NCBI GenBank assembly: GCA_027484825.1
Contig: JAIXSE010000015.1
Location: 1-64,000 of the forward strand
DNA from: Rubrivivax sp.
GTDB lineage: Bacteria; Pseudomonadota; Gammaproteobacteria; Burkholderiales; Burkholderiaceae_C
Length of the DNA: 64,000 nucleotides
Direction of reading: 5' to 3'
Below, piece after piece: positions 28,339 to 36,936 of the stretch. Every line of letters starts with the position of its first letter. Positions within the stretch are counted from its first letter, which is position 1. The notes under the pieces were generated by a model. The model was not told the origin of the DNA, made no database searches, and saw only the letters and a list, made by a program, of their open reading frames with translations. Both the position numbers and the translations under genes were made by a program.

Positions 28339-28481
28339 GGAACGGACGCAGTAACCAGCGGTTCAATCAGGAAAGAGCGGATTAAGCAGCAAGCCCGCGT
28401 CCCTCACATCCGGGACAACCCTGGCGATGCGCCCGCTGCCGTGTGTTCTCCACACCGCAGCGGGGCAGGTGCGCCACGGCC

Positions 28482-31430
28482 TCAGCGCGGCGGTTGCGGA
28501 CGGTGGGCCGCATCCGGCTGCGCCAGCCAGGCCTTGAGCTCCGCGACGCGCGGATGGTTGGGCGAGAGCTCGATGAAGCTGGCATAGGCCGCCTGGGCGT
28601 CCTTGTCCTCGCCCGCCAGCAGCAGGGCATCACCCAGGTTCAGGTGGGCCAGGGACCGGCTGCCGTCCATCTCGATGGCCCGGCGGTACCAGCGTGCCGC
28701 CTCCGCAGGCTTGTTGCGCTTGTAGTAGATGAAGCCCAGGTTGTTGGCGGCCAGCGCGAACTTGGGTTGCAGCTTCAGGGCCTCGGTGAAGGCCGCTTCG
28801 GCTTCGTCATAACGACGCTCCTTGTAGAGCTGCAGCCCCCGGTCATTGGCACGCTGCGCGGCCACGCGGGCGCTCACCGGCGCGGCGGTGGCACTGGTGG
28901 CGATGGCCGTGTCCTTGCCGTCCAGGCCCTTGACCGTCACCTGCACGGCCGCAGCACTGGCGCCTGCGATGGGCGGTGTGGCGCTGCCAGGTGCTGCACT
29001 GGCGGCGGCCATCGGCTGCAGCTGGGCATTGCGCGCCTCATCGGCGCGCTTGGCCAGCGCGCTGGCCTGCACGTCCAGCTGCGCACTGGTGGTGCTCAGG
29101 GCCTGCTCCGGCGCGGAGGCCAGCTCGAAGATGAACTCGCCGCCCTCGGAGCCCGGCAGGCTGCCAAAGGCCGGCGTCTGGTGCGCAATCGCGGACACCG
29201 CCGGTGCCACATACGCCGCCAGCTCGGTCGCGGTGATGAGGCCATCCCCGTTCAGGTCAGCCTTGCCGGACAGCGCCTGCAGCAGCGTCCAGGTGAACAC
29301 CGAATGGCCGCCGGGGCCGTCGTCGGCCACCTGCTGGTCGGCGCCGCCGGCCGTCATCATCTGACGGCCCAGACGGCGCGCGTTGTCGCGGATGAAGTTG
29401 TTGCTCCCCGGTGCGGCGCCGCGGGTCAGGCCCAGGCCGGAATAGCAGGCATCAATGACGAAGAACGCATGCTTGGCGGGCAAGGCCTCGCCCAGCTCCT
29501 GCAGCTGCGGCATGGCGATGGCATCGGTCTGCAGATCGTCGGTGCTGGAGTCCACCGGAATGATGTAGCCGACATCGCGCCCGCTGGGCAGGCGGCGGGT
29601 GCTGCCGTGTCCAGCGAAGAACACGAAGACGCGGTCGTCCCGCTTCAGGCGCGGCTGGCCGGCCTTGTCGCGGGCCAGGCCGTTGAGCGCGCGCAGGATG
29701 TTGGCCCGCGTGGCGTCGGCATCGGTCAGGGTGGTGATGTTCTCGGCGCGGAAGCCGAATTGCGATTGCAGCGTGTCGCGGATGGCCTGGGCGTCCCGCA
29801 CCGCATGCTGCAGACGCGGCCAGCGCTGGTACTGATCGATGCCGATCACCAGCGCATAGCTGTCGCGGTAGAGGTTGGCGCCGGCCAGGTCGGGGGCCGG
29901 GGCGTCCGCCGCCGCCGTCGCGGCGACCGGCTCGATGCGGCCGTCCTTCCAGGTGGCGAATCGGTAGCCCTCGGCCTTGAGCTGGTCCAGCACCAGCGGC
30001 AGGGCTTCCACCGTGCGGGCATGGATGTCGTGGAACAGCACGATGCCGCGTTGCTGCTTGGACAGCTCGTTCATCACCCGGGCCGCAATCGATTTGGGGA
30101 TCGGGTCGGACCAGTCCAGCGAGTCCACATTCCACATCATCGACCGCAGCTTCAGGCCTTCGATCACGCCCAGCGCATTGTCGGTACGGGCGCCGTAGGG
30201 AAATCGGAACAGCGGCTGTCCGGCCCTGCCGGCGGCGTCCAGCAGCGCCTCGGTCTGGCTGGCTTCCTGCTTGACCTGCTCCAGCTGGAACTTGGACATC
30301 ACGCCGTGGGTGAAGCTGTGATTGGCGATCGGATGACCGGCCGCCAGCACCCGCTTGGCCACCTGCACGCCGGGGCCGGGCTTGATCTGTCCCTTGGCAT
30401 CAACGCTGCCGAGGTTGCGCCCGAGTTCGAAGAAAACGGCCGGCGCCTGGTAGCGCTTGAGGATCTCCAGGATCTCGTCGGTGTAGCGCGGGTGCGGGCC
30501 GTCGTCGAAGGTGAGCAGCACCGTCTTGGGCGGCAGGGCGCGGCCAAAGAGTTCGCGCTCTTCCTTGCTGGGGCCGCGGGTGGTGGTGGTGGTGGTGGTC
30601 GCGGCCGAGGCGGCGGAGGCCGCTGCACCGCTGTCCGCGCCCGCCTCCGCAGCGGCCACCGACGTCGCTGGGGACGTGGCGGCATTGCTGTTGTCCGACG
30701 GCCGCGCGGCCAGGTCCGGCAGGATGGTCGCGTAGTCCTTCAGGATGCCTTCGCGGGTGTAGATCGTCTTGAGCTTGGCCACATAGTCGGTCCACTTCTC
30801 CCGCTTGAGCGTGATGCCCCGCTGGGCGAAGCGCCCGAAGGTGTCGCGCAGTTCCTGCGCATAGGCCTGCTCCACTTCCGCCAGCACCGCCAGGTCCTCA
30901 TGGGCCCGTTTGGCCAGCTTCAGCCCGGAGATGCTCTGGGAGGTGGAGAAGGTCTGCTCCAGCTGGGTCAGGAATTCCTTGAAGGCCAGGCGGTCGGCGT
31001 CGAACCAGCTGGGTTCGGTCTCGATGCGGTCCAGCAACTGGCTCAGGGCGGCCAGCCCGGCCGGGTCCTGGCCTTGCGCGGTGGCGGTGGCCACCAGCGT
31101 CTGCAGGCTGTCCTGCATGTCGTGGAACAGCAGCAGGCCGACACTGCGGACCGCGTCGCGCTCGCTCGCCTTGAGCGCCGCCTCTCCGTCCATCAGCACG
31201 ATCATCTGGCGGTAACGGGCCAGGAGCTGGTCGGACTGGCTCACCAGCGTGGCGCTGGCGGTCGGGCTGGCGGATGCAGCCACTGCCGGCGTTGGGGTGG
31301 ACGCGCTGCTCTCCGGCGCTTTCTGGCAGGCCGTCATCAGCGCGGCGGCCGCCAGGCCCAGCAGGGCCGGCGCCAGCGTGCGGGACCGCCGGACGACGGG
31401 CGGCTTGGCTGCTTCATGCTCGGACTTCAT
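28482..31430 (-). CDS. Lipoprotein fusion: NodB polysaccharide deacetylase + caspase-like peptidase + TPR
   Basis: 982 residues from ATG at 31430, placed so that a lipoprotein signal (LLGLAAAALMTAC, Cys35) is near the N-terminus; starts at 31499 or 31511 are possible. A helical domain (65-240) and Thr/Ala linker come first. The NodB deacetylase has TFDDGPHP (307-314), metal-ligand HSFTH (371-375), RFPYG (409-413) and LFHD (465-468). The caspase-like (C14) domain has ALVIGIDQYQ, FFAGHGS with His608 and FVIDACYSG with Cys662. An EF-hand-like loop DLNGDGLITATE (725-736) follows, then TPRs from about 840 (LYKERRYDEAEAAFTEAL). It should be anchored at the periplasmic side of a membrane. A deacetylase and caspase in one chain is unusual. 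Confidence 0.88.
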   Translation of the reverse strand: MKSEHEAAKPPVVRRSRTLAPALLGLAAAALMTACQKAPESSASTPTPAVAASASPTASATLVSQSDQLLARYRQMIVLMDGEAALKASERDAVRSVGLLLFHDMQDSLQTLVATATAQGQDPAGLAALSQLLDRIETEPSWFDADRLAFKEFLTQLEQTFSTSQSISGLKLAKRAHEDLAVLAEVEQAYAQELRDTFGRFAQRGITLKREKWTDYVAKLKTIYTREGILKDYATILPDLAARPSDNSNAATSPATSVAAAEAGADSGAAASAASAATTTTTTTRGPSKEERELFGRALPPKTVLLTFDDGPHPRYTDEILEILKRYQAPAVFFELGRNLGSVDAKGQIKPGPGVQVAKRVLAAGHPIANHSFTHGVMSKFQLEQVKQEASQTEALLDAAGRAGQPLFRFPYGARTDNALGVIEGLKLRSMMWNVDSLDWSDPIPKSIAARVMNELSKQQRGIVLFHDIHARTVEALPLVLDQLKAEGYRFATWKDGRIEPVAATAAADAPAPDLAGANLYRDSYALVIGIDQYQRWPRLQHAVRDAQAIRDTLQSQFGFRAENITTLTDADATRANILRALNGLARDKAGQPRLKRDDRVFVFFAGHGSTRRLPSGRDVGYIIPVDSSTDDLQTDAIAMPQLQELGEALPAKHAFFVIDACYSGLGLTRGAAPGSNNFIRDNARRLGRQMMTAGGADQQVADDGPGGHSVFTWTLLQALSGKADLNGDGLITATELAAYVAPAVSAIAHQTPAFGSLPGSEGGEFIFELASAPEQALSTTSAQLDVQASALAKRADEARNAQLQPMAAASAAPGSATPPIAGASAAAVQVTVKGLDGKDTAIATSATAAPVSARVAAQRANDRGLQLYKERRYDEAEAAFTEALKLQPKFALAANNLGFIYYKRNKPAEAARWYRRAIEMDGSRSLAHLNLGDALLLAGEDKDAQAAYASFIELSPNHPRVAELKAWLAQPDAAHRPQPPR

Positions 31431-31488
31431 CACGCCAACCGGCTCGCCACCCATCACGCCAATGGCCCACAGGGCCCCAGGCCTTTGA

Positions 31489-33024
<1,536 letters not shown>

Positions 33025-33245: not shown

Positions 33246-33815
33246 TCAGAACTGATAGGCCAGACCCACACCCAGGCGGTCCACCTTCTTGTTGAAGCCA
33301 TTGCCGTCCGGCATGTTGTTGTAGCGGGTGGCTTCGGCGCGCAGCGACACGTTCTTGGTCAGCGCGTAGTCCACCCCCACACCCAGCTTCAGGCCGGTCT
33401 TGTCTTCGTCGCCCAGGCCAGCGGAGTAATCACGCTGGGCATACGCCACACCGACCTTGCCGTAGATGCCGAAGTTGTTGCCCAGCGGTGCGCGGGCGAT
33501 ACCGTCCAGCGAGTAGACCTTGTTCTTCGCCGTCACGCCGCCGAACTCGACCTTGCCCAGGTCGGTGTAGGCCGCTTCGACCGCGAAGGTGTCATTGAGC
33601 TTGTAGCCGCCGAAGATGCTGTAGCTGTCGCTGGAACGCTTCTGGGCGTTGCCGTCGACACGCTGGCTGGCCTTGCCGACGTCACCACCGATGTAGTAGG
33701 GGGTGTCAGCAGCCATGGCCAGGCCCGAACCCAGAGTCAGCGCCACAGCAGCAGCGGCCAGCAGACCGGCCTTCTTGCCTTGGGACACGACGGTGTTGTT
33801 GTTGTTGCGGTTCAT
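33246..33815 (-). CDS. Small outer-membrane beta-barrel protein (OmpA/OmpX-like)
   Basis: 189 residues with SD AAGGAGAG before the ATG. A Sec signal (ending SGLAMA, residue 35) begins oddly with MNRNNNN encoded by an AAC run. The mature chain has about eight amphipathic strands (YYIGGDVGKAS, SYSIFGGYKLNDTFAVEAAYTDLG, YSLDGIARAPLG, FGIYGKVGVAYAQ, TGLKLGVGVDYALT, VSLRAEATRYNN, DRLGVGLAYQF) and ends in Phe, the Bam recognition residue. It matches the OmpA transmembrane domain family (porin_OmpA/OMP_b-brl) without the peptidoglycan-binding part. Adjacent to an RstAB-like system that could control it; this is not shown. Confidence 0.9.
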   Translation of the reverse strand: MNRNNNNTVVSQGKKAGLLAAAAVALTLGSGLAMAADTPYYIGGDVGKASQRVDGNAQKRSSDSYSIFGGYKLNDTFAVEAAYTDLGKVEFGGVTAKNKVYSLDGIARAPLGNNFGIYGKVGVAYAQRDYSAGLGDEDKTGLKLGVGVDYALTKNVSLRAEATRYNNMPDGNGFNKKVDRLGVGLAYQF

Positions 33816-34073
33816 GAGGACTCTCCTTCAGAGCTGGGCGCTTGGACGCTGGATGCGTCGCGGCGCCGGGGTTTCCTGTCGTCTTGCGCCTCCGGGAGAT
33901 CCGGTGGGGTTCGCGTTCGACATGGGCCTCATTCTGGGAATCCGGGACTGTCCTGTCTGTGGCGGCTGTTGAGGGGGTTTGTGACGGTTGTTGACAGTGT
34001 GCGTGAGGGCGCTTTGCGAAGCTTCACGCAAGTCCTGGCCCTGCGCGGCAGGGGGCGTCGGGGCACCGAGCCG

Positions 34074-35393
34074 TCAGGGCCCGTCCACCGGCCAGTGCAG
34101 CAGCAAACGCGCGCCGCCCAGCCGCGGGGCTTCCCCCAGCCGCGCCTGGCCGCCGTGGGCCTGCGCCACATGCCGCACGATGGACAGGCCCAGTCCGAAG
34201 CCGCGCGTGCCGGTGCGCGGATTCTTGTCCAGCCGCTTGAAGGGCTCGAACGCCGCCTCCCGCAGCGCCGGGGGCACGCCTTCACCGTCGTCATCAATGG
34301 CCATCCAGAGCTGCCCCGCCTCCACCCAGGCCGACAGATGCACCCGCGAACGCGCATGCCGCGCCGCATTGCGCAGCCCGTTGCGCAGCGCGTAGGGCAC
34401 CAGCTTCGGATCGAAGGACACCCGCTCGGGCAGCCGCAGCTCCATGTCCAGGGCCTTGCCGTCCATCAGCGGCTCCAGCGACCGGGCCTCCTGGGTCAGC
34501 AGATCACCCAGGTCGCCGCGGATGAAGGTGGGCTGCATCGCGCCCATGTCCATGCGGGCGGCGGTGAGGCTGGCGTCGATCAGGGCGTCGAGTTCATCGA
34601 TATCGCGCTCACAGGCTTGCACCGCCTGCTCGCGGGCCTGGCGGTCCTCTTCGTCCACCAGCGCATCGATGGCAAATCGCAGCCGGGCCAGCGGCGTGCG
34701 AAGCTCATGCGAGATGGCGCCGGTCACCTCCCGCTGAGTGGCCATGGCCGCCGCCAGACGCTCCAGCATGGCCCGGCTGGCCACCACCACCGGCGCAAAG
34801 AGACGGCTCTGCAGCACTGGCAATTCAGTGTCGAGCCGGCCCGCACTCAGTCGCTCTGCCGCGCGCTGCAGGCCGCGCAGGTCCCGCCACAGGGGGCGCA
34901 GTTGCCACCACGCCAGCACCGCCACGGCCAGCGCCAGCACCACCGCCACCGCCAGTTGCGAGGCGAGCTCCTTGGGCAGCTCCCCGCCGCGACGCGAATC
35001 CAGCGGACCGAGCAGCAGCAGCTGGTCGGGCTCGCCCGGCATGGCCGCATAGATGCGGCGGTTGAAGCCAGTCACGATCACCTCGCCCCGACCCAGCTTG
35101 CGGCGCTGCTCGGCGGACAGCCGGCTCTCCGCCACCGGGATCAGTCGCACCGGATAGTCGAACTGCGCATCCAGCTCCTTCACCCGTTCACGACGGGCGG
35201 GCGGGTCCAGCGGGGCCAGGTCCCGCACCAGCAGATCGACGGTGCCGCGCATGAAGCTGCGCACATAGTTGTCGGTCACCTCGGACGCCCCGACCAGCAC
35301 CAGCCCTTCCACCAGCAGCGCCAGCGCCAGCACCGCCAGCCCCAGGCCCAGCGCGATCCGCAGCAGCGAAGCGCGCAGCGTCAGCGCCGCCAT
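34074..35393 (-). CDS. Two-component sensor histidine kinase, RstB/PhoQ-like
   Basis: Inner-membrane kinase of 439 residues. Two membrane helices (about 12-35 and 145-165) bracket a periplasmic sensor of about 110 residues. A HAMP-like linker (RPLWRDLRGLQRAAERLSAGRLDTELP), DHp with ISHELRTPLARLRF, and HATPase boxes ALRNGLRNAARHA, DDDGEGVPP and GTRGFGLGLSIV are all intact. The ATG at 35393 overlaps the TGA of the response regulator (TGATG), so the two are co-translated; a TTG three bases earlier is an alternative. The architecture and partner resemble RstB. The signal is unknown. Confidence 0.92.
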   Translation of the reverse strand: MAALTLRASLLRIALGLGLAVLALALLVEGLVLVGASEVTDNYVRSFMRGTVDLLVRDLAPLDPPARRERVKELDAQFDYPVRLIPVAESRLSAEQRRKLGRGEVIVTGFNRRIYAAMPGEPDQLLLLGPLDSRRGGELPKELASQLAVAVVLALAVAVLAWWQLRPLWRDLRGLQRAAERLSAGRLDTELPVLQSRLFAPVVVASRAMLERLAAAMATQREVTGAISHELRTPLARLRFAIDALVDEEDRQAREQAVQACERDIDELDALIDASLTAARMDMGAMQPTFIRGDLGDLLTQEARSLEPLMDGKALDMELRLPERVSFDPKLVPYALRNGLRNAARHARSRVHLSAWVEAGQLWMAIDDDGEGVPPALREAAFEPFKRLDKNPRTGTRGFGLGLSIVRHVAQAHGGQARLGEAPRLGGARLLLHWPVDGP

Positions 35394-36088
35394 CAATCGA
35401 TGGCGAACAGATAACCCTGCCCGCGGACCGTCTTGATGCGTGTGGGGGAATGGGCGTCGTCACCGATCTTCTTGCGCAGCCGGGAGATGCGGGCATCGAT
35501 GGCGCGATCCAGGCCGTCGAATTCGAGGCCGCGCAGGCTCTGCATGATGTCGTCGCGGCTGACCACCTGGCCGGCGCGCTGCGCCAGGAAGGTCAGTAGC
35601 TCGTATTCGGCGGTGGTCAGGGGCACGGGCTCGCCATTCAGGCGCAGCTCGCGGGATTGCGGCAGCAGGGTCAGCGGCCCGAAATGCAGGGCCTCGCCGC
35701 CCGCAGGAACCACCGGCGCCACATCCCGCCGCAGCAGGGCCTTGATGCGGGCCAGCAGCACCCGCGGGGCGACCGGTTTGGTGATGTAGTCGTCCGCACC
35801 GCCTTCCAGGCCCAGCACCTGGTCGATGTCGTCATCGCGCGCGGTCAGCATGACGATGCGGCCGGTGAAGTCCCGGCGCAGGTCCCGCAGGACATCAAAA
35901 CCGTCCTTGCCCGGCAGATGGCCGTCCAGCAGGATCAGGTCGAACACCTCCTGTCGTGCCAGGGCCTCGCCGGCCAGTCCGTCGCCACTGATGGTGACGG
36001 CGTAGGCGGATTTTCTGAGGGCATCGGCCACCAGTTGGGCCAGTCGTTCATCATCTTCAATCAGCAATATACGGGCTACGGCATCCAT
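35393..36088 (-). CDS. Two-component response regulator, OmpR family, RstA-like
   Basis: 231 residues. The receiver domain has the acidic pair LLIEDDERLAQ, phospho-acceptor Asp in LILLDGHLPGKDGF, TARDD and ADDYITKPVAPR with the switch Lys. The winged-helix output domain carries LTTAEYELLTFLAQRAGQVVSRDD and the RstA-typical RGLEFDGLDRAIDARISRLRKKIGDD, ending GQGYLF. ATG at 36088 is chosen over the longer frame because it begins on the receiver strand (VARILLIEDD). It is the first gene of the pair with the kinase at 34074-35393. Confidence 0.94.
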   Translation of the reverse strand: MDAVARILLIEDDERLAQLVADALRKSAYAVTISGDGLAGEALARQEVFDLILLDGHLPGKDGFDVLRDLRRDFTGRIVMLTARDDDIDQVLGLEGGADDYITKPVAPRVLLARIKALLRRDVAPVVPAGGEALHFGPLTLLPQSRELRLNGEPVPLTTAEYELLTFLAQRAGQVVSRDDIMQSLRGLEFDGLDRAIDARISRLRKKIGDDAHSPTRIKTVRGQGYLFAID

Positions 36089-36174
36089 GGCCGCAAGCAT
36101 AGGCGAGCTGACGAAACCGTGCGTGCGGGGGGCGATGCGACCGGGCGCGCCGTGGGTCGTGGGTCGTGGGACGG

Positions 36175-36936
36175 TCAGGGCAGCGCCAGCCGCCAGCCCA
36201 GCGCGGTGGGCACCGCCAGCAGACCGGCATCGTCCGCCAGGGCCGCATGCTGGCGCACCAGCGCGCGGTAGGCGGCTGCGGAGAAGTCCTCGCGGCCGGT
36301 CACCCAGCGGGCGGACACCTCGGGCGTGACACAGGCGCTGAAGGTGCACAGCCGGTCGGGTCGGGTCAGCGCCTCCCGCCAGCGCAGGCGCAGGGCGGCG
36401 ATCTCGGCGGCGGCGTCCGCCGGGCGCTCGTCGATCCATTCGAAGACACGCGACGGTCCTTCATGGGCCTGGGTCTGATGCACGCCCCGGTCGTCCATCC
36501 CGATGGCCAGCAGCACCCGGCCCGAGGCCAGATTCTCCGGACCGGTCGTGCCCATCACATGGCGCATGCCCAGCACCTGACGGCAGTAGGCGAAGGTGGC
36601 CGCTGCGGCTTCCCGCGCATAACCGTGGCCCCAGTGGCGGGTGAGAAAGCCGTAGCCGATGTCGGGATGGTCCAGCCCGTCCCGCTTGATGACGCCGCAC
36701 AGGCCCAGGAACGCACCGTCTTCCAGCCGCTCCACCGCCCAGAACCCATAGCCCAGATGCCAGTAGCGGGCCATCAGGCGCTGCGTCATCCATTCCACTG
36801 CCTGCGTCTCGGTGCGGACCTCCGAGTCGTAGATGTTGGCGATCCAGCCCGGATCATTCAACAGCGCCAGCACCTGCGGCGCATCCGCCGGCTCAAACCA
36901 GCGCAGTCGCAGCCGCGCCGTCCTCAAGACCTCCAT
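36175..36936 (-). CDS. GNAT acetyltransferase, RimJ/RimL type, with C-terminal extension
   Basis: 253 residues from ATG at 36936 with SD GGGAGAGG. The first 170 are an Acetyltransf_3 domain: [77 protein letters not shown] (acetyl-CoA loop) and [16 protein letters not shown]. The order FLGLCGV...IGYGF...GHGYA is that of RimJ/L enzymes, which acetylate protein N-termini or small molecules. The final 75 residues ([18 protein letters not shown] onward) are an extension I cannot assign. Divergent from pyrF. Confidence 0.87.

Follow-up and report, generated by a model that had tools for sequence, protein, structure and literature searches.

The gene and its domain layout

The window, a stretch of 64,000 nucleotides of Rubrivivax sp. 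(assembly GCA_027484825.1, contig JAIXSE010000015.1, positions 1 to 64,000 of the forward strand), carries on its minus strand a gene for a single protein in which a NodB-type polysaccharide deacetylase, a caspase-fold domain of family C14 and tetratricopeptide repeats (TPR) are joined. The gene is a Burkholderiales (Roseateles-like) relative within the published family of Xanthomonas-type metacaspases; its architecture is not new. The following features were located:

28482..31430, minus strand: gene for the NodB–C14–TPR protein, 982 codons plus stop (open frame, Pfam matches, 49 other single-frame loci)
31326..31370, minus strand: hydrophobic stretch and lipobox, residues 21–35 (ALMTA, C35; from the sequence)
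30735..31265, minus strand: N-terminal helical domain, residues 56–232 (helices of the AlphaFold2 model, conserved DADRLAF in the alignment)
29931..30545, minus strand: CE4/NodB deacetylase domain, residues about 296–500 (PF01522, CE4 fold matches, five CE4 motifs)
29121..29879, minus strand: C14 caspase-fold domain, residues about 518–770, with His608/Cys662
29223..29258, minus strand: EF-hand-type loop DLNGDGLITATE, residues 725–736 (pattern in 49/50 members and in 0/30 other C14 proteins)
28521..28871, minus strand: C-terminal TPR array, residues about 854–970 (Pfam TPR families, model helices, TPR fold matches)

The minus-strand frame 28482–31430 gives a stop-free translation of 982 residues with a precursor mass of 105.0 kDa. 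An in-frame alternative ATG would give 1009 amino acids, and the identical database entry (P0003) has 1005; the start codon used here is provisional. When the protein was searched against Pfam with hmmscan, Polysacc_deac_1 (PF01522) was matched at residues 299–428 (E 7.9e-26), Peptidase_C14 (PF00656) at residues 525–745 (E 7.6e-23) and several TPR families at about residues 863–969; the curated cut-offs were exceeded by the first two and by the best TPR models, and the N-terminal helical domain gave no match. The order is thus PF01522, then the caspase domain, then TPR. A long antisense frame (28443–31613, plus strand) overlaps the gene; homology was found for the frame on the minus strand. 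In the window's assembly there is one copy of the gene and one C14 match. Named proteins with 92% identity come from Roseateles depolymerans and R. terrae.

Relatives and integrity of the frame

In a sample of the taxonomic family (150 genomes, five candidates scored per genome), a frame with both enzyme domains was present in 16 genomes, the window's own included. A scan of named genomes, from which 80 loci were kept, yielded at least 34 loci (L037–L070) matching along most of the chain, 32 of them with an intact full-length frame. These 32 and 18 further loci, the window's own among them, make up the 50 members referred to below, some of which are duplicates. At class level (E ≤ 1e-60, two candidates scored per genome) 3 of 369 genomes matched, namely the window's own and two others; for one of the two, the protein shows 100% identity to a database entry named Stenotrophomonas sp. 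SY1, and MnmE (Pfam) adjoins the gene at both loci. Among 7,990 scored candidates there were 1,912 matches at E ≤ 0.001, a number that may include single-domain relatives; the protein family is large. Two entries with 88–89% identity to the Stenotrophomonas protein, P0142 and P0228, bear the organism names Bacillus subtilis and Knufia peltigerae, which is probably due to assembly contamination.

The linker between NodB and C14 lies in an intact frame in 50 of the 54 loci examined (the window's and 49 others). The exceptions are L061 and L065, without an intact full-length frame by the criteria used, and L071 and L072, with NodB and without caspase. L065 is the locus of Xanthomonas axonopodis DSM 3585, which was matched over most of the chain and yet has no intact frame by the search criteria. 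Nineteen chosen positions are identical in 50/50 members, apart from substitutions at 661, 727 and 729: Ala661 is replaced by Ser in four members (L063, L067–L069), and three (L067–L069) have Asn and Asp exchanged at positions 727 and 729 of the loop. With both active sites intact, the fusion occurs in 50 loci across Pseudomonadota, Acidobacteriota and Myxococcota.

An assembly or sequencing artefact fusing two genes, the refutation named in an earlier reading of the same letters (the original prediction), has a negligible probability. The check across the NodB–C14 linker disclosed no join artefact, and a frameshift or chimera was rejected because the identical single-frame arrangement, with conserved active sites, is found at 49 other loci; all 120 listed protein matches, judged by eye and headed by the window's own, likewise carry PF01522 and PF00656, and one of them, P0040, which is marked as partial, lacks TPR. 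The single 982-residue chain with lipobox Cys, NodB, caspase, EF-hand-type loop and TPRs was correctly described in the original prediction, as frame, Pfam matches and motifs indicate, and the motif positions given there agree with the translated sequence. Its intact NodB metal and catalytic motifs are reflected in five CE4 motifs, its caspase dyad in 50/50 members and its EF-hand-like loop in 49/50; the proposed export signal with lipobox is supported by the sequence as well.

Membership in the Xanthomonas-type metacaspases

The order PF01522, metacaspase and one to three TPR was described in Xanthomonas by Asplund-Samuelsson et al. in 2012 as the "Xanthomonas-type metacaspase" (PMC3501461). 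According to the available passages of that paper, the same architecture occurs in Xylella, Stenotrophomonas and two Acidobacteria, some of these proteins being without TPR; all 17 sequences of the architecture have the Cys-His dyad, and mnmE (trmE) lies in the operon of Xanthomonas, Xylella and Stenotrophomonas, a trait outside the definition of the architecture. The arrangement, which had been put forward in the original prediction as not known and as open to refutation by a well-described family, is therefore a published one. No second paper describing it was recognised in the open-access literature.

The window protein shares with this family the domain order, the intact dyad (His608/Cys662 in 50/50 members, L053 from Xanthomonas floridensis included) and the single chain of about 100 kDa. 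Common descent with the xanthomonad proteins extends over the whole chain, as judged from identity by part and from a tree. Identity to the X. floridensis member is 40% in the N-terminal part, 54% in NodB, 66% in C14 and 53% in TPR; overall it is 49% to this member and 49–50% to the Stenotrophomonas members. The window precursor (105.0 kDa) differs from the 97–100 kDa reported for Xanthomonas (PMC3501461), and the low-complexity stretch before NodB (about residues 239–286 of the window protein) is much shorter in xanthomonad members. The tree, midpoint-rooted and based only on NodB plus a portion of the N-terminal domain, has several open forks and, beyond the family, long branches. In it, ten xanthomonad rows are nested inside Burkholderiales rows (fork of 13 rows, support 95/97), and this nesting suggests a transfer from Burkholderiales into xanthomonads. 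One row from a deltaproteobacterial metagenome-assembled genome (MAG), L060, likewise lies inside the Burkholderiales rows.

Deacetylase half and N-terminal helical domain

All five CE4 motifs, defined as TFDD, H(S/T)xxH, RxPY, DxxD(W/Y) and I(V/I)LxHD (PMC5855634), were found in the window protein, as TFDDG (307–311), HSFTH (371–375), RFPYG (409–413), DSLDW (436–440) and LFHD (465–468). Sequence comparison gave peptidoglycan N-acetylglucosamine (GlcNAc) deacetylases as the top CE4 matches, and the fold matches of the NodB domain are CE4 enzymes that include chitin and xylan esterases. With PgdA from Streptococcus pneumoniae (PDB 2c1g) the CE4 domain has 39–40% identity over the aligned domain, in a match without C14 domain or TPR. 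The N-terminal part of PgdA differs from that of the window protein.

By structure alignment, the N-terminal helical domain and NodB were paired with Bd3279 (PDB 5jp6; rmsd 4.8 over the aligned span), which has no caspase or TPR. Bd3279 is a peptidoglycan deacetylase of Bdellovibrio bacteriovorus with an all-alpha cap over the active site, which seemed predator-specific to its authors (PMC4876506). A sequence profile matched Bd3279 from the CE4 part onward only and gave no support for homology of the cap; two NodB proteins (from Bdellovibrionaceae and a Myxococcales MAG) align with the window protein in the CE4 part only.

The combination of N-terminal domain and NodB occurs without the caspase in L019 (523-amino-acid frame, 35% identity over 60–497) and L071 (a beta-proteobacterial MAG); L072 ends at a contig end, and L020 matches in the NodB part only. 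All four have NodB and no caspase in frame and are grouped with the family in the tree; they may have lost the caspase or may never have had it.

Caspase domain and EF-hand-type loop

The C14 domain has a p20 fold with the His-Cys dyad, formed by His608 and by Cys662 of the motif DAC (660–662). Because the predicted S1 aspartates D546 and D660 are invariant in the 50 members, cleavage after Arg or Lys, and not after Asp, is predicted. The p10 subdomain separates metacaspases from orthocaspases (PMC6426788). In the full-length AlphaFold2 model the caspase half came out poorly (pLDDT < 50 at 661–714 and 743–765; pTM 0.40), and the caspase domain was for this reason refolded alone. The C14 model was aligned with Arabidopsis metacaspase 4 (PDB 6w8r/6w8s) over most of its length, with 24% identity over the fold alignment. 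The Arabidopsis protein is a type II enzyme of eukaryotes and is not known to carry NodB or TPR domains.

The EF-hand loop consensus (PROSITE pattern PS00018) was matched in 49 of the 50 loci (L010 fails) and in 234 of 239 proteins, and nowhere else in the 50 chains (48,009 residues). It was absent from 30 other C14 proteins, a nonrandom control set of high-scoring PF00656 loci that are nearly all of the DACR type and include one doubtful active-site match (L144). Four further C14 proteins (L022, L025, L027 and L032) have no such loop by a looser pattern.

Conserved basic residues follow the catalytic Cys: R670, R686 and R689 are present in 50/50 members, R670 in a low-confidence loop of the model. 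No column of the NodB–C14 linker holds Lys or Arg in at least 30 of the 50 members, and three of the 50 linkers (L011, L018 and L066) have neither residue at 497–520. The linker between C14 and TPR has columns rich in Lys/Arg at 795 (42/50), 834 (32/50) and 855 (47/50).

Probable export and location

In the window protein the hydrophobic stretch is followed by the lipobox LMTA and Cys35, as in a lipoprotein. The residue after the lipobox Cys generally governs sorting, residues other than Asp favouring the outer membrane; here it is Gln, not Asp. A hydrophobic N-terminal segment was scored in 50/50 members by simple hydropathy, and because of this the C14 domain should not be cytoplasmic; the presence of an export or anchor segment in all members makes a periplasmic role more likely. 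A lipobox was found in 26/50 (25 by script, L038 by eye), the other 24 having the segment without it; the lipobox is lineage-specific. Among the listed matches to the Stenotrophomonas protein the script found a lipobox in 120/120, and among those to the window protein in 97/119. Of these 119, 18 have a hydrophobic start yet fail the script (several with LPGC, which it disallows) and 4 have neither; among the failing ones, at least P0042 and P0067 begin inside the domain.

Of the 30 other C14 proteins, 14 were scored as having a hydrophobic N-terminus in a rough test that used a guessed start and a threshold different from that applied to the 50 members. In the available text of PMC3501461, N-terminal helices of metacaspases are called likely signal peptides in a general remark, and a lipoprotein is named once, in another context. 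The oddness of an extracytoplasmic caspase fold, suggested by the original prediction, is doubtful in view of both observations; C14 proteins with putative export signals are not unusual. The window protein is a conserved and probably exported two-enzyme protein, which would reside outside the cytoplasm.

Proposed function and alternatives

We favour, with modest confidence, a function as a membrane-anchored envelope enzyme in which a PgdA-like deacetylase is combined with an Arg/Lys-specific, possibly calcium-dependent protease, and which would serve envelope remodelling or quality rather than act as a cytoplasmic death protease. Once exported and lipidated, the protein would be anchored facing the periplasm, probably in the outer membrane (Gln after Cys). 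Deacetylation of peptidoglycan would fall to the CE4 domain, which is close to the peptidoglycan GlcNAc deacetylases of PgdA type, and cleavage after Arg or Lys to the C14 domain; the EF-type loop may tune this cleavage via calcium. Self-processing would be more likely in the loop that follows Cys662 (R670) than in the deacetylase linker, and the TPRs would recruit a partner or substrate. The EF-type loop, should it bind calcium, would depart from the calcium independence ascribed to orthocaspases (PMC5756287). The interest of the protein lies in its likely location and in this candidate calcium loop rather than in the architecture. A more far-reaching proposal, which we regard as unlikely, is that Xanthomonas-type metacaspases are a calcium-sensing envelope system and not death proteases: a caspase-fold protease, anchored in the periplasm and bearing a true EF-hand loop within its p10 part, would control the peptidoglycan deacetylase on the same chain, and would have spread from Burkholderiales to xanthomonads.

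Several points weigh against the envelope enzyme. The sequence does not dictate which substrate the CE4 domain acts on, and fold matches about as good as that to S. pneumoniae PgdA were obtained with chitin deacetylases, an acetylxylan esterase and a CE4 pseudoenzyme. The hydropathy score that gave 50/50 is crude, being taken from member frames with provisional start codons, and the predicted outer-membrane placement is not family-wide, 24/50 members being without a lipobox. A missing p10 has been tied to calcium-independent activation of orthocaspases (PMC5756287), and the absence of any neighbour gene common to the compared lineages leaves the context uninformative on function. In X. campestris pv. 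glycines, moreover, the product of the homolog is reported to cross-react with caspase and PARP antibodies, and caspase activity to correlate with cell death (PMC3501461).

These last observations would suit an executioner of programmed cell death of the Xanthomonas type, in which the caspase is an intracellular death protease and the deacetylase a passenger or cleaved off; a 55 kDa form could be the processed protein of about 100 kDa, and programmed cell death in Xanthomonas is the only functional claim on the family that was found in the open-access literature (PMC3501461). Such a role is quite improbable, given the hydrophobic N-terminal segment in 50/50 members, with which C14 is not expected in the cytoplasm, and the invariant S1 aspartates, which predict Arg/Lys cleavage where Asp-P1 substrates are unsuitable for orthocaspases (PMC5756287). 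The calcium-gated self-release of the original prediction, in which the calcium-bound caspase would cut the chain and free or activate the deacetylase, could draw on the EF-type loop in 49/50 members, on the low-confidence loop with invariant R670 just past Cys662 and on the self-processing of the orthocaspase MaOC1 (PMC5756287). It is weakened by the lack of a conserved basic site in the NodB–C14 linker and by the three linkers without Lys/Arg; a cut at R670 would keep the deacetylase attached to the catalytic part, and we consider self-release highly doubtful. A cut in the C14–TPR linker might shed the TPRs. Somewhat more plausible, though still on the unlikely side, are two independent envelope enzymes that share an anchor and a TPR scaffold without cross-regulation, the deacetylase perhaps acting on capsule or biofilm polysaccharide. 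That the deacetylase half can occur alone is indicated by L019 and L071, and the chitin and xylan esterases among the CE4 fold matches fit other substrates; the retention of the fusion in 50 loci over three phyla with both active sites intact suggests joint usefulness instead, and it is with peptidoglycan GlcNAc deacetylases that the CE4 sequence matches best.

Gene neighbourhood

In the window, purB lies upstream of the gene on the opposite strand and is divergent, with GNAT, GST and SppA on the other side; the gene differs in these neighbours from the Xanthomonas-type metacaspases with mnmE in their operon. Among the loci kept, mnmE adjoins the gene in 9/9 xanthomonad loci and in 0/27 other loci of L037–L072. 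Of 24 related regions, which differ in length, 7 contain a purB frame and 2 a GST frame. A function based on the operon was rejected, since purB is divergent upstream and mnmE was found only beside xanthomonad members.

Elsewhere in the window, an OmpA-like barrel (33246–33815), a histidine kinase (34074–35396) and an RstA-like response regulator (35393–36439) are encoded consecutively, all on the minus strand; the set (33246–36439) is possibly an outer-membrane-protein-linked two-component system.
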